From the IMG/VR virus record IMGVR_UViG_3300025085_000211, positions 1 through 22,515 of that record: DNA of 22,515 nt, one strand, 5' to 3'. The translations under genes were made by a program, and so were the position numbers. This document shows, in pieces, positions 2,443 through 14,701 of the stretch. Numbering within the stretch: position 1 is the stretch's first letter; every line of letters begins with the position of its first letter. This DNA is from a virus. The notes beneath the pieces are model-generated. The model made no database searches and had not been told where the DNA came from. It saw nothing but the letters and a program-made list of their open reading frames with translations.

Positions 2443-4101
2443 TTATGAGAAATTTTTACCTGCCAAGAAACCGTACCAAGTAGTTCCACCGTCATGAGAG
2501 AAGAACGCCACAATATCAACTTGGTTTGCTCCAGTTGAAATAGCGGGGGTAAGACCATTTGCCCACTTAACAGAAGCAGGAAATGATACACCAAATTCTG
2601 AAGCACTGGCATCCTGAATGATCTTAAGAGTAAAACCATACGCCGTACCTGTAGAGGGAGGATTAGTGAATAAGAACGTGGTAGCTTCACTTAAGGTTAT
2701 AGAGAAGACGTTAGCTGTCTCACAGTCTATAGTTGCTGTACCTGTAGAGGATGTAATAGAACTAAACTCTTCGTTAAGCGAAGTAGCCTTGAGCTCACCT
2801 GATATAGTTACATCGCCAGTAATAGCAACGTCACCCGTGTGGAGTTCATCTACTTTAGTGTCTAGAGAATTCTGTAACCCGTCTACATTGGAGATAATGT
2901 GAGCGTGGCTATCATCCGCTATACTTGCAGTTATGGTGATGTTAGTGCTGCCATCAAATGAAGCAGAGCCTGTTACGTCACCATCTAGTATAATATCACG
3001 TGGATTAGACAAAGCAGTAGCAGACAGAGCTGTATCGGCGCTAGTTGCTGTGGTGGCAGACGTAGCGGTAGTGGCACTTGTTGCTGTGGTAGCGTTACCT
3101 AATAGGTCACCAGAAAACGCTGTAGTAGCTGTAATAGTTGAACCGGAAATTAACCCAGGGGTAGTACCTCCGATAGTAACATTATCAATAGTACCTCCAC
3201 TAATAGCTACAGTAGCTAGGTTAGCCGTACCGCCAATGTAAAGATCATTCCACTCTTTAGTAGTGCTGCCTAAGTCATAGATACCTGTTGTAGCTGGAAT
3301 AACGTTTGTGTTTACTCCAGCATTCACACTTACCGTATCGGCGTTGTCACTACCTATTACAGTATTACCGTTGGCTGTAAGGGTGCTTGTAATATCAACA
3401 GTACCTCCTACCTCTAAGGTGCCGTCGATAGCAGCATTACCTGTGGCGTCCACTGCAGTAAAGTTACCTACATCACGGGTAGTAACACCAATAGCAACTC
3501 CGTCAATAGTACCTCCACTAATAGTAGCTGAATCTGCTGATAATGAATCTACATTAGCTACACCAGTTACGTATAGATTATTCCACTCTGAGCCTGTAGC
3601 ACCTAAGTCGTAGACACCATCGTTTGAAGGAACTAAGCTAGAAGCTAAATCAGCGTTTACAGTTACTGTGTCTGCTGACGTATCACCTAAAGTAGTACTG
3701 CCGTTTACTGTAAGGTCACCTGTGAGCGTAGTGTTTGTAGTCACAGATAGAGTGCCTGTGATAGATGTATTACCAGCAGACAAAGCACCTGTAGCTGTAA
3801 CAGCCGAAACAGTAAGATCTCCTGCTAGATAAGCATCTTTGTATTTCAGACTAGATGTACCAAGATCTACAGTGCTTGTTAGTTTAGGACGTAGTACACT
3901 AGATGTAGCTACAATATCCTGCGCTGGTCCAAGTAATTCTATAGGCGCACCTTCAGCAGATGTACCATCATGGCTGTGTCCTGTAGAACTACTAAAGGCG
4001 CTTTCAACAGCGTTCAGTTCTGCGTCTATATCGTCAGCGTCAATAACATTACCATTAGCTATGTTATTAGCTGTATCTGTTCTTGTGTAACCAATACCCA
4101 T
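2443..4101 (-). CDS. Tail fibre protein with duplicated beta module and shared terminal domain
   Basis: A 552-residue fibre. The N terminus 'DADDIDAELNAVESAF....GHSHDG' (20-46) is a common start of marine phage fibres. Two long related modules follow (about 129-205 and 240-312), each with 'YDLG....EWN.LY', plus a shorter one at 74-98. A simple stretch 'ATTATSATTATSAD' lies at 339-356. Next comes a Phage_fiber_2-like segment, 'DDSHAHIISNVDGLQ..LD.KV' (396-417), nearly the same as in the 1227-residue fibre. The last ~97 residues form a terminal beta domain ('TLSEATTFLFTNPP...FPASVKWANG...GGTTWYGFLAG') shared with the 120-, 393- and 397-residue proteins. It directly follows the gp10-like gene, the position where P22 has its needle gene. 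It probably attaches to the tail hub and contributes to host adsorption. Confidence 0.85.
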   Translation of the reverse strand: MGIGYTRTDTANNIANGNVIDADDIDAELNAVESAFSSSTGHSHDGTSAEGAPIELLGPAQDIVATSSVLRPKLTSTVDLGTSSLKYKDAYLAGDLTVSAVTATGALSAGNTSITGTLSVTTNTTLTGDLTVNGSTTLGDTSADTVTVNADLASSLVPSNDGVYDLGATGSEWNNLYVTGVANVDSLSADSATISGGTIDGVAIGVTTRDVGNFTAVDATGNAAIDGTLEVGGTVDITSTLTANGNTVIGSDNADTVSVNAGVNTNVIPATTGIYDLGSTTKEWNDLYIGGTANLATVAISGGTIDNVTIGGTTPGLISGSTITATTAFSGDLLGNATTATSATTATSATTATSADTALSATALSNPRDIILDGDVTGSASFDGSTNITITASIADDSHAHIISNVDGLQNSLDTKVDELHTGDVAITGDVTISGELKATSLNEEFSSITSSTGTATIDCETANVFSITLSEATTFLFTNPPSTGTAYGFTLKIIQDASASEFGVSFPASVKWANGLTPAISTGANQVDIVAFFSHDGGTTWYGFLAGKNFS

Positions 4102-4109
4102 CTTAAAGC

Positions 4110-5642
4110 CTATCGCCTTTCGTTAGTAGAAAATTCTAGTACGGCAGTATCCAACGTAAAAGAGGCGTTAGTACTGTTATCCTCTATTCGTAAAGCCACT
4201 GTAGTTCCAGAACCTATTATGTTGTTAAAAAAAGTTTGATCCCCAGGTGTACTGTACAGAGTTGTTCCAAAGACAGAACCTGAATCTCCATAGACAAAAC
4301 CTCCTCCACTACCTGAGAGAGTTACGGGTTGAGGTTGAATAACATTAGGTTCGTTTCTATCTAACTTAAGGCTTACATCACAAGTAAAGGAACCTTCAGG
4401 TTTAATGTATGTGTCAAGCTTATAAAAAGTCTTACGTATTTGAGGGTCAACTATAGGCATAAATGCAGATTCATAAATAGCTTCTATACTACCGCTATCC
4501 CTCGTACTGCCTACTTCCTGTTTGTATACATAACCATCATCGTTAGCAAAGTATATAAGCTCTACGTCACCTACTAAGATTGAATCAGCTACGTGTACTT
4601 TAAAACCTTTTAGAGTAGCCCACTGAAAACCCTCACCACCCTGGTCAATAAACTTTGTTGCTATCAATCCCTTGGATACACTATCTCTTATATTATTAGA
4701 ATAAACAAATAGTCTGTACTGTCCCTTCTTACGAATTACATAGCTATGTGCACTTACCGTACCCTTTAAAAGCTCGTCAAGTGTATTCTTGATTGGTTTA
4801 GAGGCTACGTCAAGGCCGAAGTCACCTATACGTTCAGTAGAGCTCAGAGTTCGTAACCCGTCAGGAGCTAAGAACATAACATCGCCGCCAACTTCCCTGA
4901 TGCTATCTGTCTCTAAGCAACCTAAAGCACTTGTTAGAGAACTTAAAGAGAAGTCTGCACTACTTGAGCCTACTAACTTTAGTATTCTATCCGCACAGAA
5001 GATGATTAAGTTGTCACGGTATACAGCCAATCCTGTAATAGTAGACGCTACATTTATAACACCTGCACCGTCAGCAGGATTAAAGTTAGTATCGTCGTAA
5101 GGTGCAGTGAATACAAGCTCTGTACCTACAGCAAAAAATAGAGTGCTTTTATACAGTAAGGCTACTGATGCACCCGCTACGTTAGACTCTCCGATACCTG
5201 AACCTGTTAAGAAAGTTAGAGAGCCTGACTCGTAGTAAGCTGGGTAGTTAAGTCCATCCGTAAATACAATCTTTTCTGTACCAGTAAAATTATAAACTTC
5301 TTTTCGTGTCTTAGTGAAAGTCGTATTAGAAGCTGTGGCTAGAGATGTCCATACAGGAGTACCTGAGGACGAGTCTGCTTCATAGTACGTACCGTCTCTA
5401 ACGGCTATAACTTTAGAAGAGTCTACTGCAGCGATACCCTGTACTGTTCCGTTACCTGTTACTTCAGAATTAATAAGTTTTTCGTACCCCAGTACTTTCT
5501 TATACCCGCCTGATAAAGAAGGTTCAAAGTTCTGTAGGATAGCACCTGATCCAATAGAAGTCATACCGTGTTGTAGAGGACTGAGATTGGATATTAAACC
5601 ACCCTTGAATTGAATGGGAAATGTCTGCCACATTGTTGCCAT
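4110..5642 (-). CDS. P22 gp10-like tail accessory (stabilisation) protein
   Basis: A 510-residue protein matching the pattern of the phage stabilisation / P22 gp10 family: N-terminal 'FPIQFKGGLISNLSPLQHG', repeated beta strands about the imported values ('GIAAVDSSKVIAVRDGTYYE', 'FTDGLNYPAYYE', 'LLYKSTLFFAVGTELVFTAPYD'), and the conserved 'TGLAVYRDNLIIFCADRILKL', 'DSIREVGGDVMFLAPDGLRTLSS'. P22 gp10 (about 472 residues) closes the tail tube below the gp4 ring. The upstream neighbour is the gp4-like adaptor, only 2 bases away, as expected for partner proteins. A GGGGGG run lies upstream of the ATG as a G-rich ribosome binding site. The family call is from recalled pattern, not a search. Confidence 0.85.
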   Translation of the reverse strand: MATMWQTFPIQFKGGLISNLSPLQHGMTSIGSGAILQNFEPSLSGGYKKVLGYEKLINSEVTGNGTVQGIAAVDSSKVIAVRDGTYYEADSSSGTPVWTSLATASNTTFTKTRKEVYNFTGTEKIVFTDGLNYPAYYESGSLTFLTGSGIGESNVAGASVALLYKSTLFFAVGTELVFTAPYDDTNFNPADGAGVINVASTITGLAVYRDNLIIFCADRILKLVGSSSADFSLSSLTSALGCLETDSIREVGGDVMFLAPDGLRTLSSTERIGDFGLDVASKPIKNTLDELLKGTVSAHSYVIRKKGQYRLFVYSNNIRDSVSKGLIATKFIDQGGEGFQWATLKGFKVHVADSILVGDVELIYFANDDGYVYKQEVGSTRDSGSIEAIYESAFMPIVDPQIRKTFYKLDTYIKPEGSFTCDVSLKLDRNEPNVIQPQPVTLSGSGGGFVYGDSGSVFGTTLYSTPGDQTFFNNIIGSGTTVALRIEDNSTNASFTLDTAVLEFSTNERR

Positions 5643-5644
5643 AC

Positions 5645-6364
5645 TTAAAAGCCCCCCGGCCCTCCTAAAAGAGGACTCCTTTGGATACCTGTAGAGTATA
5701 TATAATCGTAAGAGTTAATAAACAAAGTGCGCATATGCTTAATACCTTCTTTGAACTTAGCCTCGGTAAGAGATGCAGCCTGATTGTCACCTCTGAATTG
5801 GTAGCAGTAGTACATAGCACCATCTACAATAACATGTCTAAATTCTGAAGGACTAGCAGGCACATCGTCATGTAAAGAAAGGTCTAATGTGTTTCGGTAG
5901 TACTCGTATACTAATTCGTATTCTTTATCGGGGCTTGGAACTACAAGATATTCTTGGCTAGGTGCTTTGACTATGTAGCGAGGTATACCCCGAATACTAG
6001 TGTCTGTGTTGTACTCATGGTCTACCCAATTCTTTAAGTAATCGCTGTAGTTTAAGTTTGTAAGCTTAGTGGTGCTAACATTTAAATTTATATCTTTCTT
6101 AATTCTAAAGCTATTAACATCAATAGTTTTGGCTTCCGTAGGGTAGCCATACCGTACAGTACCTGCAGTCAGTAAATCCTCTTCTTCTACATGATTCCAA
6201 GGCCAACCAAACTCTTCATGATTAATATGCCTGATAGAAGCGTTGACTGCATCTTTAATAGAACTATAAAAACCTGTAGCGGTAGAAAAGTTAGAACTTG
6301 TAAGTTCTACTTCGTTCAACCTACGGTTAACTTCATTAACTAAACCTAAATAATTATAAGACAT
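5645..6364 (-). CDS. Head-to-tail adaptor, P22 gp4 / tail tubular A-like
   Basis: A 239-residue protein beginning 'MSYNYLGLVNEVNRRLNEVEL', with a predominantly helical N terminus ('IKDAVNASIRHINHEEFGWPW' region, about 33-56). A middle region of beta strands follows ('RYIVKAPSQEYLVVPSPDKEY', 'LVYEYYRNTLDL'), then a C-terminal 'FRHVIVDGAMYYCYQFRGDN..A' helix. This arrangement fits the adaptor that docks under the portal in P22-like and T7-like podoviruses. It is longer than P22 gp4 (166) or T7 gp11 (196). Its ATG overlaps the stop of the preceding gene by one base (TAATG) with AAGGGA upstream. Pairing with the gp10-like gene downstream supports the assignment. Whether it is closer to gp4 or gp11 is open. 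Confidence 0.8.
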   Translation of the reverse strand: MSYNYLGLVNEVNRRLNEVELTSSNFSTATGFYSSIKDAVNASIRHINHEEFGWPWNHVEEEDLLTAGTVRYGYPTEAKTIDVNSFRIKKDINLNVSTTKLTNLNYSDYLKNWVDHEYNTDTSIRGIPRYIVKAPSQEYLVVPSPDKEYELVYEYYRNTLDLSLHDDVPASPSEFRHVIVDGAMYYCYQFRGDNQAASLTEAKFKEGIKHMRTLFINSYDYIYSTGIQRSPLLGGPGGF

Positions 6365-6684
6365 TATTTTTCCCTTATACGTAAGCGAACAGTTCTTTCT
6401 ACCACTAACCCACCACTCGTGGTGACATTACACGTAAAAGTATACAGTTTGTTATTAGTTCCCGCAGCTATAAAAGCAGTGGTAACAGTGTCTGTGTTTG
6501 TATTAGATACTAATTGAATACCATTAACAAGAGGGCCAGAAGGTACTAATTCTGTCTTTACGCCGTCAGCGTCATTAACAAACCAAGTAACACTACTAAG
6601 CGTTTCCCCACTAAGAAAGCGGGACCAGTCAATGCTGTAATCTAAAGTTTCGTCAGCATCTTTGTTGGGCCATTTTAACGACAT
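6364..6684 (-). CDS. Fiber-tail adaptor-like protein
   Basis: A 106-residue protein with the pattern 'KWP.KDADE.LDYSIDW...L.GET.SS..W', then 'F.AAGTNN..YTFTCNVTT.GG.V.ERTV.LRIRE'. This is the typical form of the small beta-sandwich proteins annotated as phage fiber-tail adaptor. They occur in many siphoviral and podoviral genomes near fibre genes. The domain is about the normal family length, with no signal peptide or membrane segment. An AAAGGAT sits about 7 bases before the ATG, and the stop codon overlaps the start of the connector gene. It probably mediates attachment of one of the neighbouring fibres to the tail, which is an inference from the family name and position. Confidence 0.75.
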   Translation of the reverse strand: MSLKWPNKDADETLDYSIDWSRFLSGETLSSVTWFVNDADGVKTELVPSGPLVNGIQLVSNTNTDTVTTAFIAAGTNNKLYTFTCNVTTSGGLVVERTVRLRIREK

Positions 6685-6695
6685 TATAGTATCCT

Positions 6696-7532
6696 TTAAG
6701 CAGCTTGTGCGTATACAACTCTATTAGACGGGCTATCTTGTATGAATACAGTCCTAGACTTATCTGCTTCTACATACGCTATTCTGTTTGATGGGTAGTC
6801 TATTAGGTACACTGTTCTATCCCTCGTGTAAGATTCCGCTAAAGCAGCATAGTTAAACTGTACTGCATCTATAAGTAAAGATCCTAACGGTATGCTGAGA
6901 GAATCAATACTTACATCTAGTATATTATTGCATTTAATATCTACAGCAGCAAGAGAAGATATAGCAAAAACATTTAAGTCTTCTATAGAAGCATCAGCAA
7001 AAACATTTAAGTCTTCTAGTGATGTTGTTACTTCTAGTGTCTGGACTACTACAGTGGCCTGTGCATCAATAACTACATCATCGTCAGTAGTTGTAGGATC
7101 ATCCGTGATACATTCAGCAGAAACACTATCTAAAACAACAGTAGCCTGTGCATCTACTTCTACATTAGAAAGAGTAGAAACAGAAGAGATACTGCTTATA
7201 GATAAGTTTGCTTCTGATATAACAACTACATCATCTATAGTATTTGTTAGTTCTATAGAGGCAGGCACAACATTAGCAGTTGCACTTATCGTAACGGTAT
7301 CTAGTGTTGTAGCACTTTCAGTAGACGTTAGTGTGAGATTAGAATTCGCATTTACTTCTACACTAGGTGTAGGGATAGAAGAGGTAAGGCTTGATAATTC
7401 TAAGTTAGCTAGTCCTACTACTACAGGTACTTCAACAGAACTTGTGATAACTAAAGACGGTACAGCTACCGAAACAGAGCTAGCTCCTTGGTCAGAAAAA
7501 GCTGCACCTGAAAAGGGTGAAACACTAAACAT
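6696..7532 (-). CDS. Beta-repeat virion protein with RTVY/SNR terminal repeats
   Basis: A 278-residue protein without Trp or His, very rich in Val, Ser, Thr, Ala and Asp. It consists mostly of imperfect ~23 to 35 residue repeats of the type 'V.V.A.A.V.L.S....T', for example 'VEVDAQATVVLDSVSAE' and 'VVIDAQATVVVQTLEVT'. An 11-residue unit 'EDLNVFADASI' is tandemly duplicated at the DNA level. The end holds two copies of 'RTV(Y/F)(L/I)(I/Q)D.PSNR(I/V).Y', a pattern also common at the C terminus of marine phage structural proteins. It is probably a fibrous, beta-structured virion component. GGAGG lies 12 bases before the ATG, a longer than usual spacing, with no better in-frame start. I do not recognise a named family. 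Confidence 0.75.
   Translation of the reverse strand: MFSVSPFSGAAFSDQGASSVSVAVPSLVITSSVEVPVVVGLANLELSSLTSSIPTPSVEVNANSNLTLTSTESATTLDTVTISATANVVPASIELTNTIDDVVVISEANLSISSISSVSTLSNVEVDAQATVVLDSVSAECITDDPTTTDDDVVIDAQATVVVQTLEVTTSLEDLNVFADASIEDLNVFAISSLAAVDIKCNNILDVSIDSLSIPLGSLLIDAVQFNYAALAESYTRDRTVYLIDYPSNRIAYVEADKSRTVFIQDSPSNRVVYAQAA
6963..7018 (-). repeat. 23-base perfect direct repeat inside the beta-repeat gene
   Basis: An identical 23-base unit occurs at 6963-6985 and 6996-7018, a 33-base period, so exactly 11 codons are duplicated in frame (EDLNVFA...). The lack of any difference suggests recent slippage or duplication. Confidence 0.9.
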
Positions 7533-7569
7533 TAGATCAATCGTCCTCCCTTATACTGCTATGGGGTTA

Positions 7570-8238
7570 TTATGACACATTTATAACACAACTCATCATT
7601 ATGTTGTAGCTGCCATAATCTCCTCCAGCAGCAACTGTCCTGTTAGTATTGGCATCGTTTTGAATTTCGTAGTACATTCTAATTTTGTTAGCGTTTTCAC
7701 CAGCATCAGCTTCACTGCCATCCCAAAAAGTCCCGCTTATTACCGGAAATGCAGAACTATATGAGGAGTATAAGGCAAGCAATAGATTTGGCGCATCATA
7801 AGATGAAGTGGTTAATGTTTGTTGACCTGGTGTGCCGGAGGTCTGATTGCTATTGTTTACTGAAGAAACATGTACATTTGTAACTGGTATACCTGATCTA
7901 AAGACCAACATAATCGCAGCGTCATAGTTATCTGCGGTTCTAGTAAAGGTCGTTGTTAAGTCTGAAGACGTTAATACCTTATACTGAAACATCTCCTCAA
8001 ATGTACTATTAACACTGGCTATTTGAGTAAATCCAGAATATACAGTTGGTGATGGGCCCGTAGCAGTTGATGAGTGTGCTATGGCAAGATCTCCAGCCTG
8101 CGCCCCAGATGGAACTTGTATGTTCATGTTTACCGTAGCGGTACTTGCGCCAACATATGTAAATCCCGGCGTAGCCGGTGGAGCGGGTCTGTTTAAATCG
8201 TTACTACCCAAGCCCATCGTCATTGCTATATTACTCAT
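7570..8238 (-). CDS. Beta-sandwich-like virion protein
   Basis: A 222-residue protein with a Pro-rich linker (19-24) and then a beta-rich body with 'VPSGAQAGDLAIAHSS' (42-57), 'YDAAIMLVFRSGIPV' (105-119), 'SYDAPNLLLALYSSYSS' (146-162) and a 'MYYEIQND' strand (188-195). The 'G.QAGDL.I' turn and the following pattern are familiar from phage structural proteins with a jelly-roll or lectin-like fold, but I cannot name the family. The ATG overlaps the TGA of the 120-residue gene (ATGA), so it is translationally coupled to that appendage gene. It may be its partner or a fibre tip. No signal peptide or membrane segment is present. Confidence 0.65.
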   Translation of the reverse strand: MSNIAMTMGLGSNDLNRPAPPATPGFTYVGASTATVNMNIQVPSGAQAGDLAIAHSSTATGPSPTVYSGFTQIASVNSTFEEMFQYKVLTSSDLTTTFTRTADNYDAAIMLVFRSGIPVTNVHVSSVNNSNQTSGTPGQQTLTTSSYDAPNLLLALYSSYSSAFPVISGTFWDGSEADAGENANKIRMYYEIQNDANTNRTVAAGGDYGSYNIMMSCVINVS

Positions 8239-8597
8239 GATAATAATTCACCTGCAAGCTTGGCGTAATACGTTGTGCCGCTATCCGTTGTTAAGAACAC
8301 ATACAAATTAGTTGTGCCACTTGCGGGTACATCTGGGGCTGAACCTCCGTGCCATTTTACCGATGAAGGCCATGTTATAGTGTACGTAGACGCTCCAGTG
8401 ACCTCCAATACAAAGCTAGCCGCAAAACCTGACGGAGGTGGGTTGCTAAATGTAAAAGTAGTGTTAGCTGATAAAGTCTTAGTGAAGTAGCTACCGGAAG
8501 ATATATCTATATTTGTAGCTGCCAAGGCACCACCTGATTGCAGATACCTCTTGGCGATCAATCCATTCTTTATTTTAAAGGGTTTATTGTTAGCCAT
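8235..8597 (-). CDS. Minimal appendage protein (N-tag plus terminal beta domain)
   Basis: A 120-residue protein. Residues 1-11, 'MANNKPFKIKN', match the starts of its two upstream neighbours (MSNNKDFKIKN and MANDKDFIVNN). Residues 28-120 form the terminal beta domain shared with the 393-, 397- and 552-residue proteins: 'YFTKTLSANTTFTFSNPPPSG', 'YTITWPSSVKW.GG.AP', 'TTDSGTTYYAKLAG'. The propeller array that separates these ends in the neighbours is absent. It can be read either as an unloaded cassette or as a deletion product of a larger fibre. The frame is intact with start, stop and a GTGAAAC purine stretch upstream, so it appears functional. It could be a short fibre tip or a capping subunit. 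Confidence 0.8.
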   Translation of the reverse strand: MANNKPFKIKNGLIAKRYLQSGGALAATNIDISSGSYFTKTLSANTTFTFSNPPPSGFAASFVLEVTGASTYTITWPSSVKWHGGSAPDVPASGTTNLYVFLTTDSGTTYYAKLAGELLS

Positions 8598-8615
8598 GTT
8601 TCACTTTCTACTCAG

Positions 8616-9809
8616 CTAAGGCCCTGTATTTACAGTAACAAAGTAGTTCGTACCGCCAAAATCATTTGCAACAATTGTGTAGGTGTATTTCTCACTGGGG
8701 CTGGGGCTTGGAAGTGATAGACCGTTACTAAATCTTACTGATGAGGGCCAGTAAACTTTATACTCGGAGGAAGACGAATTAGTAACCTCTACTTGAAATG
8801 TTTGCACATCGCTTAGGTTACTAAATAAAAAGGCTACGTCTGATGATAACGTTTGAGTAAAGTAATTACCTGTGGATGTATCAAGGTTTATGCCTGCTCC
8901 AGTCGATGCTGTGGAGTATTGAAATGCAGAATAGACGCTGTTGACGGAATTACTACCAATAGCAACCAGTTTAGTGCCATCGTTGTTGAAGTCAAACCCT
9001 GATAATAGCACGTTATGAGTATGCTCAGCGCCTAGATTAAAACTTATGCTATCATAACTAGCTGTGCTAATATCATAAGCTGTAGAAAGAGAGTATTGGT
9101 AGATTGTTTCGCTGGAACCACCCACAAACATCTTAGTACCATCGGCATTAAAGACCATCTCTTTGGCGCCGCTTTCCTCATTAACAACACTAAAGCTGAC
9201 ATTATCGTAACTACCTGTGCCAACATCATAAGCTGTAGAAAGAGAGTATTGGTATATGGTGTTGTTATAATCGCCAACAGCATAAATTTTAGTGCCATCA
9301 TTGTTAAATGCTATTCCAGTTGGAAAACTGTCTTGTCCACCAATGTACAGGGAGGAGTTGTTAATATAACTTGCCGTGCTTACATTCCAAGCCGTAGAAA
9401 GAGAGTACTGACGTACCTCATCTCCGCCAGTATCAACTACATACATCTTAGTGCCATTGGGGTTAAAAAGGACACCGTTTGGCGAAGCAGCCATGAAGTT
9501 TGAGGTGGAACCAAAGCTAAGATTACTGTAGGAAGCAGTGCTAAGATCATAAGCTGTAGAAAGAGAGTATTGATATACACGATCTTGCCCGTTCATTAGT
9601 ACGTACATCTTAGTGCCGCTATCACCAAACTGGATACTAAGCGGAACTGTACCCTGCACTGCAAAACTAACAGTATCGTAAGAACCGTTTTCTATTGAAT
9701 ACCCACCCGTAACTACGGTGCCTGCAGAAGAAGAATTACCAATAGTAGCCTTCATGCTACCACCTACTTCAACAAGGTTATTGACTATAAAGTCCTTGTC
9801 GTTAGCCAC
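8616..9809 (-). CDS. Propeller-repeat tail appendage protein (397 residues)
   Basis: This protein has an N-tag 'MANDKDFIVNNLVEVGG' (1-17), five propeller-like repeats with the core 'F...GTK.Y' at 61-69, 115-123, 168-176, 220-228 and 274-282 (period about 52-54), and the shared terminal domain (about 305-397). Each full repeat carries 'YQYSLSTAYD.STASYD..SF'. The design, a blade array between fixed ends, suits a receptor-binding or fibre domain, as phage fibres often use variable central repeats. The start is GTG (9809-9807), with its G shared with the TAG stop of the 393-residue gene (TAGTG). A GGAG 7 bases upstream of it fits a ribosome binding site. It is a paralogue of the neighbouring 393-residue protein. 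Confidence 0.8.
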   Translation of the reverse strand: MANDKDFIVNNLVEVGGSMKATIGNSSSAGTVVTGGYSIENGSYDTVSFAVQGTVPLSIQFGDSGTKMYVLMNGQDRVYQYSLSTAYDLSTASYSNLSFGSTSNFMAASPNGVLFNPNGTKMYVVDTGGDEVRQYSLSTAWNVSTASYINNSSLYIGGQDSFPTGIAFNNDGTKIYAVGDYNNTIYQYSLSTAYDVGTGSYDNVSFSVVNEESGAKEMVFNADGTKMFVGGSSETIYQYSLSTAYDISTASYDSISFNLGAEHTHNVLLSGFDFNNDGTKLVAIGSNSVNSVYSAFQYSTASTGAGINLDTSTGNYFTQTLSSDVAFLFSNLSDVQTFQVEVTNSSSSEYKVYWPSSVRFSNGLSLPSPSPSEKYTYTIVANDFGGTNYFVTVNTGP

Positions 9810-10990
9810 TAAGCCGCTCCATCTATTATGTGAGAAGCTTGATACGATGTGCCGCCGTCACGGGTACTGAATGTTAGTACATCTGCTTCGTTAGTTGCAG
9901 GGGTATCAGGAGCGGAGCCGCCCATAAATTCAATAGAAGAGTCATAGCTGACGGAATAATTCCCAGATGACTTCAACAGCACCGTAGCCTGACTAACGGT
10001 CCCACTATCAGCAGGGTTAGTAAAAAATAATTCAGAGTCAGCTGTTAAAGTAACATCAAATACTGCACCTGTAGAGAGGTCTAGAGTCACATTCTTTGTA
10101 TTTGGGACTGTGCTGTATTGATATAGTCTATCATTGCTATTATTCAATACGTACACCTTACTCAAGTTATTATTGAAGGCTATGCTGAAGGGTAAAGAAG
10201 CCTGGCTATTTACAGAAAAATTCAGGTTGTCATAACTAGCTGTGCTAATATCATAAGCTGTTGAAAGAGAGTACTGATATAAGCTGTTGGAGCCATCATC
10301 AGCAGTATACATTTTAGTACCATCGTTATTAAAGGCAAAACTGTAAAGTCTACTATTCTGAGAAGAAAAAAGCACACTAACGTTGTCATAACTAGCTGTG
10401 CTAATATCATAAGCTGTTGAAAGAGAATACTGATGTATAGTATCTTGCGTAGTACAAACAATATACATCTTAGTGCCATCCGGCTTGAAAAGCAAGTCCG
10501 TTGGTCTGCGCACGTCTGCAATAGTTGTAGTGTCAAAGCTGACATTATCATAAGAAGCTGTGTTTACAGTCCAAGCTGTTGAAAGAGAGTATTGAAATAC
10601 AGACTTGGTATTAAGGTCGCCAATAATATACATCTTAGTGCCGTTGTTGTTGAAACGTACAGCAAAAGGGTTCGTCTCCTGACTACTTACACTAAAAAAA
10701 TCAGAGGAATTATAAGAAACTGCGCTAATATCATAAGCTGTTGAAAGAGTATGTTCATATACTCTGTCGTTGTTCGACCCAATTATATACAGCTTAGTGC
10801 CATCATCATTGAATTCAAAGCCTGTACAAAAACCATCTCTAGCTCCAGCGAAAAACTGCACGTTATCATAGGACCATGTAGAAATACTTTGAGGTGCGGT
10901 TGGATCAGCAATCGTAACTGTACCTAATTTCTCTTGATAAACAGTAGGCTTGATAGCATTCTTTATTTTAAAGTCTTTATTATTTGACAT
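9809..10990 (-). CDS. Propeller-repeat tail appendage protein (393 residues)
   Basis: It has the same architecture as the following gene: N-tag 'MSNNKDFKIKNAIK' (1-14), five repeats with 'F...(G/L)(T/S)K.Y' at 60-68, 113-121, 168-176, 220-228 and 272-280, and a terminal domain from about 299 to 393 ('LDLSTGAVFDVTLTADSELFFTNP', 'SSIEFMGGSAPDTP', 'RDGGTSYQA'). The fifth repeat is degenerate ('FNNNLSKVY'). Five blades is a low number for one propeller, so the fold could be completed by oligomerisation or by neighbouring strands. AAAGGTGAACC precedes the ATG (10990-10988). The gene follows the long fibre by 27 bases. It probably provides receptor binding. No enzyme motif is visible. Confidence 0.8.
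   Translation of the reverse strand: MSNNKDFKIKNAIKPTVYQEKLGTVTIADPTAPQSISTWSYDNVQFFAGARDGFCTGFEFNDDGTKLYIIGSNNDRVYEHTLSTAYDISAVSYNSSDFFSVSSQETNPFAVRFNNNGTKMYIIGDLNTKSVFQYSLSTAWTVNTASYDNVSFDTTTIADVRRPTDLLFKPDGTKMYIVCTTQDTIHQYSLSTAYDISTASYDNVSVLFSSQNSRLYSFAFNNDGTKMYTADDGSNSLYQYSLSTAYDISTASYDNLNFSVNSQASLPFSIAFNNNLSKVYVLNNSNDRLYQYSTVPNTKNVTLDLSTGAVFDVTLTADSELFFTNPADSGTVSQATVLLKSSGNYSVSYDSSIEFMGGSAPDTPATNEADVLTFSTRDGGTSYQASHIIDGAA
10226..10426 (-). repeat. 45-base identical repeats in the 393-residue propeller gene
   Basis: Bases 10226-10270 and 10382-10426 are identical over 45 bases, spaced 156 bases apart (52 codons, one blade). A closely matching 32-base stretch appears in the neighbouring 397-residue gene at 9052-9083. 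The strongest identity is in the region coding for 'QYSLSTAYDISTASYDN'. Confidence 0.9.
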
Positions 10991-11017
10991 GGTTCACCTT
11001 TCCCCTTGTCAAGTATT

Positions 11018-14000
11018 TTAGGCTAAGATGACAGCTTTCGCCGTATAGTTAGTCGAGTTAGATGATGCAGCTGTAGCTAACAACCTTACGTTACCACCAC
11101 TAATATCCACATCAAATGTAGCAATAGTGGTATCGGTGTTAACTGTGCCATATTCTGTAGCTACTGCTGTAGTGTTATCATGTGTTACAAGTAGCTTGGA
11201 TATAGTACGTTCTGTTGTAACTGTATTTGTTGCAATAACAGTGATCTCCAAACCTAACGAAGAAGAAGCAGTGTATGTAGCAATGGCTGTCTGTGAAGTA
11301 CTTGTAGTTGTAGCAGTTTGCTCGTCGCCTCCCGCACTAGCTACTGCTGTATCGACATAGTTTTTGTTTGCTGCGTCCGTTCCAGAAGAAACTGTATCAA
11401 CGCCTTGGATGCGACCTGTGCCACTTAGAGTGATGTCGCCGTCAGATACTGTCAGGCCATTTTTGATGGTAACCTGACTATTGTTCACCACAAGACGCTC
11501 ACTGTTACCTGTAACAACACGCCAACTGTTTGCTCCGTTGAACTGCATGTATGTGTCGGTATCGCCATCGTGGATGATCTTGTCGCCTACATAAGCAGAA
11601 TTAGACAGGTAGAGGTCTTTCCAACGAGTTCCACTTGCACCTAAATTTATTTCAGCATCTTGTAATCCATCTTCATCACAGGGGAGAACACCACTGTTAG
11701 CACCGCCAATACCCGCACCTTGTCCAGTTGCAGTTCTAAGAATAAGATTTGTTGCAACCCCGCCACGAGAAGAAATACTCCCCACAGTGGCACCGTCTTT
11801 GCGGAACTGCACAATATCACCATCTGATGTGCTACGATTAAAAGTAGCTGACCTACCCCCATCACGACTAACACTCAATAAACCGCCATAAGAACCTGCC
11901 GCAAGAGAAATACCTTCAACATTATTTTCTGCTGTAAGTATTGTAGTAGTCCCCACCAGCAAGTTACCGCTGCTATCAATGCGCATGGCTTCTGTGGGAG
12001 AACCAGAGCCAGTTTGAAACCGCATTGATCCATTCTCAGCCTCAAGGTTTAAATTTCCTGCACTTTCAATGGCATTGTTTACACGAATATCACCCTCAAC
12101 ATGCAACTTATCACTAGGCGAACTCGTGCCAATTCCAACATTACCGCTGCTGTCGATGCGCATGGCTTCTGAGTTGGCAGTGCCAAACAACATACGGCCA
12201 GTGGTTTCCTTGTTAAAGATATAGAAGTCATCATTGTAACGCTGAAGATAAGTTAGTTCGTTGCCAGAAGTGCCAAAGACAAGACTTGGATTAGTGCCGC
12301 CAAGATGAAGTTTAGCCGTAGGTGTTATCCCAATTCCAACATTACCGCTGCTGTCGATGCGCATACGTTCTGTGTTGTTGGTTAAAAAACGCAAAGGATA
12401 AGAGCCGTTTGTCCTTACAAACCCGCCAACACTATCTGCCCTTAAATCCATAACAGTACTGTCTAGGGTGTCTTCTATACGAAGTGTGTTTTCAGCATTG
12501 CGAACCATGTGCAATTTAGCACTAGGCGAACTCGTGCCAATCCCAACCCGATTATTTGCGCTGTCAACGTGCAGTGTGTTTGTATCCACAGTCAGCCCAC
12601 CTGCAGTAATAGTACCTGCACTGAAGTCACCTGATGAATCACGAGCTACAACTTTAGATGCTGTGTTAAGAGATGTAGCATCTACGTCTAGTGTACGGTT
12701 AGCTGATAGATCTCCACCACCTGTTAAATAATTACCTGATGTAATAGTTGTAGTGTTGGCTACTTTAGCATCTAGTGCTGTCTGTAATCCATCTACGTTA
12801 GAGATAACATGTGAGTGTGAGTCATCTTGTATGGCAGCATTGATACTTACATCTGCAGAACCGTCAAAGGTCACACTTCCTACTACGTCACCTGTAAGCT
12901 GAATAGTACGTGAGGTTGCTAATGCTGTAGCTGTATCTGCATTACCTGTGGTATCTTGGTTACCTGTGGTATTAACACCAGGTAAATCTATATTAGCTGT
13001 GCCGTTAAAGGATACACCACCAATGTTACGTGCGGTAGCAAGTGCTGTAGCAGAAGTAGCTGTACCTGTTACATTGCCCGTAACATTACCCGTTACATTA
13101 CCCTCAAAGGAATCTGCTTTTAGTATAGCATAGGAAACACTGGAATCTGCCAGATCAATAGCACCTGCTGGTGTAGGATCGTATTCGTCTAACAGAATCC
13201 ACTTACCTTCAGAGGCATCGTAGTAAAAACCTGTGTGAGTGTAACCTACACCAGAAGTACCTGTATTGTAGTTAGTAAAAAAACCAGAATCTACGTTAAT
13301 AGGGCTTGCTGTACCGTTCCACTGATCATTAAGTGTATGACCTGTAGTAGAGCTAAAGGTTACAGAGATGTTATCTGCGCTATGAATAAGCTGTTCATTA
13401 CCTGTAATATCTACACCAGTAGCTACACTTGTAACAAAGTTATCCGTAGACCAAGCAAATGTATCAACACCGCCTGTGCCAGTACCCACACCATCAATCT
13501 TAACATAGTAAGTTGTAGAAGTGGTGCCTGTAAAGTGACCTGCAAAGAAGGCATCGTCAAGACCTGTTCCTGTAAAGGTAGTGCCGGACTCACCAATAGC
13601 ATCACCTTCGTTAGCACGGTAGAAAGGCGCACCTGCTGTAACGTCAGAAGTAGACACAGAAGTAGTAGACCCAAGGACAGTTAGGTTACCATCAACTTGT
13701 AGGTCAGAACCAACGTGTGCAGATGTACGAACACGAAAACTATTTACTGAGTGGTTTTGTTGATTAACAAGAACTGTACCGTCTGTAGCGTCTGAGGTAA
13801 CAACCCACCCAAGGCTCATAGGAAAGTTAGGATATAGAGGAGATGCGTTTTGTACAGCGCCAGGAGTAAGACCTACAAAGAAGTCTGTACCCTCACTAAG
13901 ACCTGATGTATCGAAACCGTCAAGCTGACCTGCAATGATGCAGTAGCCATAGCTGTTGTTAGGAATGTCGGATGCAGCAAGACCCCGTGCGTTATATGCG

Positions 14001-14701
14001 TTAACGTCTGTAGCATCTGCTAATCCAACAGTAGGTACGTCAATACTACCTCCAGTATAGTTACCACTAAAGTAAAGAGGTTTTCCTTTTAGGATAGTAG
14101 CGCCTGTATCGTTATATACACGTTGATGCTCTTCAATACCTAATTCATGAATAACATTCTGGTCATCACTGTAAAAGTTAACTGTCTTATGAATAGAGTC
14201 ATACCAGATTCTGCCCTCTTGGTAAGCTGCATGATCTGATAGAACTTCAAGATCAATGTACCCACCAATGTCAGCATTACTGGTAGTTTCTAGTGTGGTG
14301 AACTTACCTGTAGTAGCACTAGTAGCACCAACAGTAGTACCATCAATAGTACCACCATTAATGTCGATATCACCGTTACCGTCTAGGTAAACAGCCTTTG
14401 AAGCGGGATAAGACATAAACACAGACTTATCGCCTGTACCAAAGTTTACTGCAGATGTACCATTAGACCCTGCTAGGATAGTAGTACGAGATAGAGTGTT
14501 ACCTGTGTTCCAAGTACCTATCCCTACTTCCCATTCATCGACTCCTGATTCTTGTGTTGCGACAGCATAATAAGTTGTGTCACCGTTAGCCATATAAGAG
14601 CTGAACGCTTCGAAGGTACTATCTGCACCCCCTAAAGAAAAATCACCCGTACCTGTGGTGGTAGTGGTTTCTTTTACACGATCTTTAAGAATAAGAGCCA
14701 T
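11018..14701 (-). CDS. Long tail fibre protein (1227 residues)
   Basis: The N-terminal ~100 residues ('ILKDRVKETTTTTGTGDF', '..TYYAVATQ..DEWEVGIGTW..GNTLSRTTIL') are a common attachment domain of marine phage fibres. Residues 190-315 and 355-500 hold folded-looking segments. A 'GNVT' tandem repeat (535-546) leads into a Phage_fiber_2-like segment, 'DDSHSHVISNVDGLQ..LD.KV' (626-647). Three to four 'MRIDSSGNVGIGTSSP..KLH' repeats follow (718-918). The 'INLGASGTRWKDLYLS' motif (1018-1033) and 'VSSGTDAANKNYVDTAV' (1104-1120) come before a 100-residue Thr/Ser-rich end. No C-terminal S74-type cleavage domain was seen. It follows the 145-residue gene by 11 bases, with AGGT upstream. It is probably a major host-recognition fibre. 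Confidence 0.85.
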   Translation of the reverse strand: MALILKDRVKETTTTTGTGDFSLGGADSTFEAFSSYMANGDTTYYAVATQESGVDEWEVGIGTWNTGNTLSRTTILAGSNGTSAVNFGTGDKSVFMSYPASKAVYLDGNGDIDINGGTIDGTTVGATSATTGKFTTLETTSNADIGGYIDLEVLSDHAAYQEGRIWYDSIHKTVNFYSDDQNVIHELGIEEHQRVYNDTGATILKGKPLYFSGNYTGGSIDVPTVGLADATDVNAYNARGLAASDIPNNSYGYCIIAGQLDGFDTSGLSEGTDFFVGLTPGAVQNASPLYPNFPMSLGWVVTSDATDGTVLVNQQNHSVNSFRVRTSAHVGSDLQVDGNLTVLGSTTSVSTSDVTAGAPFYRANEGDAIGESGTTFTGTGLDDAFFAGHFTGTTSTTYYVKIDGVGTGTGGVDTFAWSTDNFVTSVATGVDITGNEQLIHSADNISVTFSSTTGHTLNDQWNGTASPINVDSGFFTNYNTGTSGVGYTHTGFYYDASEGKWILLDEYDPTPAGAIDLADSSVSYAILKADSFEGNVTGNVTGNVTGTATSATALATARNIGGVSFNGTANIDLPGVNTTGNQDTTGNADTATALATSRTIQLTGDVVGSVTFDGSADVSINAAIQDDSHSHVISNVDGLQTALDAKVANTTTITSGNYLTGGGDLSANRTLDVDATSLNTASKVVARDSSGDFSAGTITAGGLTVDTNTLHVDSANNRVGIGTSSPSAKLHMVRNAENTLRIEDTLDSTVMDLRADSVGGFVRTNGSYPLRFLTNNTERMRIDSSGNVGIGITPTAKLHLGGTNPSLVFGTSGNELTYLQRYNDDFYIFNKETTGRMLFGTANSEAMRIDSSGNVGIGTSSPSDKLHVEGDIRVNNAIESAGNLNLEAENGSMRFQTGSGSPTEAMRIDSSGNLLVGTTTILTAENNVEGISLAAGSYGGLLSVSRDGGRSATFNRSTSDGDIVQFRKDGATVGSISSRGGVATNLILRTATGQGAGIGGANSGVLPCDEDGLQDAEINLGASGTRWKDLYLSNSAYVGDKIIHDGDTDTYMQFNGANSWRVVTGNSERLVVNNSQVTIKNGLTVSDGDITLSGTGRIQGVDTVSSGTDAANKNYVDTAVASAGGDEQTATTTSTSQTAIATYTASSSLGLEITVIATNTVTTERTISKLLVTHDNTTAVATEYGTVNTDTTIATFDVDISGGNVRLLATAASSNSTNYTAKAVILA
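12129..12364 (-). repeat. 35-base direct repeat inside the long fibre gene
   Basis: Identical 35-base units occur at 12129-12163 and 12330-12364, coding for 'MRIDSSGNVGIG'. A diverged third copy lies near 11957. A further identical 22-base stretch is shared around 12112 and 12518. These repeats probably reflect duplicated fibre segments. Confidence 0.85.
13068..13103 (-). repeat. 12-base tandem repeat coding GNVT
   Basis: Three 12-base units (13068-13079, 13080-13091, 13092-13103) differ by one or two bases and encode repeated Gly-Asn-Val-Thr in the long fibre. Confidence 0.85.

Follow-up and report, generated by a model that had tools for sequence, protein, structure and literature searches.

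The three adjacent genes A, B and C of the DNA analysed here, a 22.5-kb viral record from IMG/VR (IMGVR_UViG_3300025085_000211; 22,515 nucleotides (nt), a genome fragment, hereafter the window), probably form a conserved cassette of swappable adhesins in which each scaffold protein offers two slots for exchangeable modules. By comparison of sequences, the homology of the three genes, the two slots, the two types of module, the gain, loss and replacement of modules as units, and the conservation of the gene set and its order are established. In our model, each protein would be a small constant scaffold, comprising an N-terminal tag and a fibre-type C-terminal domain (CTD), with two permissive positions, slot 1 ahead of the CTD and slot 2 in a CTD loop, that would host whole folded domains, most often a five-bladed propeller but at times a DUF7483 domain. 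Such a cassette looks suited to rapid change in what the virus adheres to. The features of the three genes are listed below, where paired symbols give the contents of slots 1 and 2 (P, five-blade array; D, DUF7483; 0, empty) and L-numbers are contig labels of the comparison set (L088 being CRP-603 and L090 HMO-2011).

9809..10990, minus strand: gene A, 393 amino acids (aa); N-terminal tag, five-blade array in slot 1, CTD, slot 2 empty (P0)
10109..10876, minus strand: slot-1 module of A, a five-blade array, residues 39-294; presumed fold by way of the L104 model
9833..10087, minus strand: CTD of A, residues 302-386; empty slot 2 between residues ~341 and ~345 (about 9956-9970)
8616..9809, minus strand: gene B, 397 aa, GTG start; N-terminal tag, slot 1 filled, CTD, slot 2 empty (P0)
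8910..9686, minus strand: slot-1 module of B, a five-blade array, residues 42-300
8637..8888, minus strand: CTD of B, residues 308-391; slot 2 empty (about 8763-8774)
8235..8597, minus strand: gene C, 120 aa, minimal; N-terminal tag and CTD, both slots empty (00)
8382..8396, minus strand: empty slot 2 of C, residues ~68-72, VTG-AST; a five-blade array stands here in relatives, e.g. L024 and L032

All three open reading frames are intact. The original prediction, made from the letters of the window, held them to be tandem paralogues with homologous terminal domains, and this is borne out: a profile of the CTD (~88 residues) matches C at residues 29-116 (5e-40), A at 302-386 (2e-30) and B at 308-391 (6e-23), making the three CTDs homologous well beyond chance. 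The five-repeat insert that it assigned to A and B and denied to C is equally there, with five repeats of ~52 residues in A, five in B and none in C. The shared N-terminal tag that it described, M-[AS]-N-[ND]-K-x-F, is found in all three proteins but is not specific to the cassette; NKDFKVKNG is also the start of fibre-like proteins without this CTD in many other phages, and the tag alone is therefore not diagnostic. Proteins of the latter kind that begin NKDFKVKNGL (L232, L237, L242, L254) often stand in tandem, one of ~630-680 aa and one of ~150 aa. The stop codon of A and the start codon of B share one base (TAGTG), and C shares four with the adjacent gene, D (ATGA), an arrangement that suggests translational coupling of the set. 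In the window phage, two slots hold putative propellers (A1 and B1) and four are empty, the states being P0 for A, P0 for B and 00 for C.

A two-slot grammar among relatives

The major capsid protein of the window is 97.8% identical to that of Roseobacter phage CRP-13 and 68.9% identical to that of HMO-2011, a relation to HMO-2011 and the CRP phages that points to a backbone of the HMO-2011 type. Relatives were collected in three protein-based scans of IMG/VR and a fourth scan with a tag pattern blind to gene content, which combined gave ~45 cassette-bearing contigs. The A-B-C set and order are kept among them, and each gene has a signature (A, KDFKVKNGI-PT-Y; B, KDF-KNA-EVGG or NGPV-VGKD; C, FKIKNGL-A-RYL). 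All three genes are present in 20 of the 23 clusters counted with flanking sequence; in the remaining three, a gene is truncated where the contig stops (L017, L138) or C is without its CTD near a contig end (L133). The arrangement of the window recurs in the independent contigs L001 and L002. The cassette is not confined to one backbone, as L104 pairs it on the same contig with a J-type central tail fibre gene.

Essentially all complete proteins of the family fit the grammar tag-[0/P/D]-CTDn-[0/P/D]-CTDc, CTDn and CTDc being the two parts of the CTD on either side of slot 2, which separates the strand that ends in LEVTG from the strand TITWPSS, as is evident from B of L095 and others. Two tandem CTDs were considered for the double-array proteins and rejected, because profile coordinates and sequence reveal a single CTD split by a module. 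A slot contains nothing, one five-blade array (n = 97, 260-289 aa with a median of 269) or a single DUF7483 domain (PF24299; n = 14, ~326 aa, slot E-values from 3e-43 to 2e-65). Slot borders and reading frames are preserved in nearly all genes, and two unrelated folds share the same borders. Gene A is mostly PP, P0 or PD, with 0P and 00 seen once each and DD in L186; B is P0, 0P, 00, PP or 0D; and C is 00, P0, 0P, D0, 0D or PP. Altogether 20 slot combinations occur in 25 non-redundant clusters, and 21 in 31 contigs once L161, L178 and L239 are added. The same CTD is also present behind different N-termini (e.g. M.V.IDYTSG) in the other phage contigs L025, L037, L041 and L055, and in the last three it is split at slot 2 by a five-blade array.

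AlphaFold and Foldseek support the propeller fold and the retention of the CTD strands when the domain is split. The double-slot A protein of L104 is predicted to form two propellers of five four-stranded blades each (mean predicted local distance difference test (pLDDT) score 90.9), with the CTD strands retained on either side of slot 2, and Foldseek relates the array to many solved propellers (prob 1.00) and the CTD to many viral fibres. By homology to the L104 model, the arrays of A and B in the window would likewise be beta-propellers. C is modelled as a small all-beta domain (pLDDT 84). The consensus of the 97 arrays repeats strictly every 52 residues, in five units.

The empty gene is A in L032 and B in L010, L015, L017, L019, L022, L032, L094 and L125. 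As any of the three can be the minimal gene, C is no special cap, and we rejected both this role and that of a frameshifted or decayed remnant, the short gene being an intact reading frame in relatives. The original prediction had been right about a modular array; a special role, as cap or ancestral scaffold, which it raised as a possibility for the minimal gene, finds no support. The slot arrangement of the cassette accounts for the persistence of a minimal fibre gene of 120 residues. Beyond that prediction lie the position of slot 2 inside the CTD, the DUF7483 module type and a fourth CTD copy in the window.

Gain, loss and exchange of modules

That the array is gained or lost in one piece, as first proposed from the window, is strongly supported by the related phages. 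One clade with good support (100/97; 97/91 for the inner pair) includes L010 with an empty B, L011 with B filled at slot 1 and L127 with B filled at slot 2, and the scaffold sequence is nearly identical despite the differing slots. Between L017 and L129, B is found without and with a module of ~800 bp, flanked by near-identical DNA. On a scaffold tree of 25 tips, the slot states require 35 changes or more, as against a mean of 43 and a minimum of 37 for shuffled labels, a count taken on a tree of moderate support and one that recombination in the scaffold would inflate; slot states therefore appear to carry little phylogenetic signal.

Module identity is decoupled from scaffold identity. In pairs of contigs, modules of the same slot have a median identity that stays at 41-47% across all bins of core identity, <50% to >90% (core identities ranging from 43% to 94%). 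Between the window and L003, the array of B is 68.1% identical in nucleotides and its flanks are 97.5% (end of A), 94.5% (CTD of B) and 95.3% (C) identical. The array in B1 of L128 is 85% identical to that in A1 of L110, which argues for movement of arrays between genes and phages; the nucleotide similarity of this pair starts at the module start and stops just inside the CTD. Transfer of the whole cassette also seems to have occurred recently, since the A-B-C genes of the window are 99.5-100% identical to those of L001 and gene D, gp12, a 552-aa fibre gene and a 447-aa gene around them are 88-93% identical (89% of nucleotides for the last), genes E and F being intermediate at 97.4% and 98.4%. 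This combination of an apparently conserved attachment part and a rapidly exchanged middle part is that of receptor-binding proteins.

In the proposed mechanism, modules would be swapped, gained and lost as units via recombination between phages and sometimes between genes, through homology in the slot flanks and possibly with the aid of a NUMOD3 homing-endonuclease-like gene, which could drive co-conversion of the cassette. Such a gene lies between A and B in three contigs (L093:1871-2557, L118:10294-10875 and L128:1916-2533), where it retains a one-base overlap with A. There is no reverse transcriptase among the annotated genes of the window, itself a genome fragment, and no search aimed at diversity-generating retroelements was made.

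Location and function of the cassette

We infer the virion location of the proteins, receptor binding, the recombination mechanism and the stoichiometry of A-B-C. The scaffolds would attach via the tag and assemble via the CTD to build an appendage from which the modules project, and the most likely targets of the modules would be glycans or other structures on the host surface; receptor binding by these modules is likely. The constant composition of one A, one B and one C suggests a heteromer, and we tentatively raise the possibility that the three proteins are obligate partners of a heteromeric spike, e.g. an A:B:C trimer, with six addressable slots, making the phage population a combinatorial display library of whole domains. 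If true, domains of at least two unrelated folds would plug into standard sockets, one of them inside the end domain, with the scaffold unchanged.

Several observations weigh against a swappable adhesin cassette. Every cassette contig is a metagenome assembly; no carrier of A or B was found in the phage-isolate collection, which minimal A and B as queries matched at the CTD only; and a single scan of GTDB genome contigs with minimal B as query returned no relative. Identical arrays are common to the closest contig pairs, so that array turnover would be fast and not total. Finally, gene position and a weak resemblance in fold between C and a capsid spike allow an appendage on the head. A doubtful reading that builds on this last point makes the cassette proteins head (capsid) fibres, with the propellers as loose glycan or particle binders holding the phage near its hosts and other fibres setting host range. 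The best PDB fold match of C, a weak one, is indeed the capsid spike of Pseudomonas phage Pa223 (9ny6, prob 0.92, E 0.03), accompanied by a weak match to tailspike TSP4 of CBA120; PHROG matches include virion structural and head categories; and additional fibre genes are at hand, in the window at 11018-14701 and 2443-4101 and, as the J-type central tail fibre, on the contig of the L104 cassette. Against it, the CTD is carried mostly by proteins annotated as tail fibres and matches a PHROG 9017-like family of tail-fibre end domains (C 2.4e-12, A 1.1e-4, B 4e-4), and a gene of a tail fibre assembly chaperone family (PF16778) follows closely behind the cassette in relatives.

We consider it improbable that the cassette reflects neutral domain mosaicism, in which arrays come and go by repeat-mediated recombination or assembly errors and the swap is not selected. 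The repeat DNA of the window is homogenised, the repeated motif codons of A and B having a pair identity of 0.72 against 0.36 expected (maximum 0.52 in 2000 simulations), and such likeness above the codon-usage expectation is a sign of repeat duplication or conversion; repeats can also mislead the assembly of metagenomes, from which all contigs come. Neutral turnover or misassembly sits poorly, however, with frames and slot borders that are kept in nearly all genes and used by two unrelated folds, with a repeat number constant at five, and with the reproduction of the window arrangement in L001 and L002. Least probable of all is an enzymatic role for the modules, as propellers of lactonase or depolymerase type cutting host or matrix polymers. 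There are weak Pfam matches to SGL (PF08450; B just above the cut-off, 26.9 with a cut-off of 26.3, A below it at 19.0) and Lactonase (PF10282; B 23.8 with a cut-off of 21.7). Against this role, the unrelated DUF7483 family occupies the same slots, all positions conserved in at least 85% of the 97 arrays are repeat-consensus positions, and sequence conservation gave no blade-unique residue in these arrays that would hint at a catalytic or metal-binding site, which fits a binder better than an enzyme.

Known systems and neighbouring genes

Modular receptor-binding proteins are well known; typically, their N-terminus is conserved and their C-terminal part can be replaced. In the cassette both ends of the scaffold are constant, and exchange takes place at two internal sockets, one within a folded domain, in three paralogues. 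Modular phage fibres are a known kind; we found no description of the three-gene, two-slot grammar in the open-access literature searched, and one may exist elsewhere. In an abundant type of marine phage, the cassette would offer a readable natural record of how domains are exchanged, with two defined permissive sites, and it raises the question of whether module content is predictive of host or adsorption target.

Like A and B, Gp45 of Staphylococcus phage phi11 is an appendage protein with a five-bladed propeller; each chain, running from a proximal stem to a C-terminal tower, has one such propeller of four-stranded blades, a proposed binder of N-acetylglucosamine (PMC4901313). Unlike the cassette, it is the product of one gene with a helical stem in a siphophage of Firmicutes, and the portions of that paper drawn on here describe no second slot, empty form or fold exchange (PMC4901313). 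PDB sequence searches gave nothing useful and no match to phi11 Gp45. A general survey of domain mosaicism reports the same principle, the shuffling of folded domains between phage receptor-binding proteins, but the sections cited here mention no fixed two-slot scaffold in three paralogues, insertion into an end domain or propellers (PMC10684548). Papers on HMO-2011-type phages, in the parts consulted, treat tail fibre variation in general terms only (PMC6918029, PMC8528129). The paper on Sulfitobacter phage PhiGT1 proved unrelated.

Parts of the system recur in named phages. CRP-13 (gp43), CRP-9, CRP-2 and CRP-738 have a related backbone and the same array family, but their arrays are in one fibre of ~1130-1240 aa without this CTD, elsewhere in the genome, and A-B-C is absent. 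The CTD is carried in other fibres of CRP-13, CRP-9 and CRP-603. Roseobacter phage CRP-603 has the gene order of the window at the site and the CTD at the ends of gp53 and gp58, without A-B-C; there, the CTD ends a fibre that matches the window fibre at 11018-14701 by its start sequence, the end of the window fibre being different. Lentibacter phage ICBM2 gp51 (403 aa) contains the same kind of five-unit array, but no A/B/C tag and no CTD of the cassette family was detected in it. HMO-2011 has, in a similar place (5011-11700), a row of ~15 small genes for fibre or tail-related proteins (80-364 aa); we ruled these out as minimal cassettes, since they have no CTD of the cassette family.

Two neighbouring features complete the list for the window.

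2443..4101, minus strand: CTD-ending tail-fibre-like protein, 552 aa; fourth CTD copy at residues 457-548, unsplit, without the A/B/C tag
7570..8238, minus strand: gene D, 222 aa, MSNIAMTMG...; variable passengers in relatives behind a similar start

The fourth CTD copy is matched by the CTD profile (1e-29) and by the PHROG 9017-like family (6.1e-20), and BLAST recovers the same four proteins as the profile. The gene at 1087-2430, the 447-aa neighbour compared with L001 above, encodes a protein that matches propeller repeats (DUF5122, SBBP) weakly and no PHROG. Relatives of gene D (L005, L104, L106, L117, L118, L010) combine a short kept start, MSN..M(G/S), with a changing passenger, which may be an array of five or ten blades, a single or double DUF7483 domain, or an LVIVD propeller.

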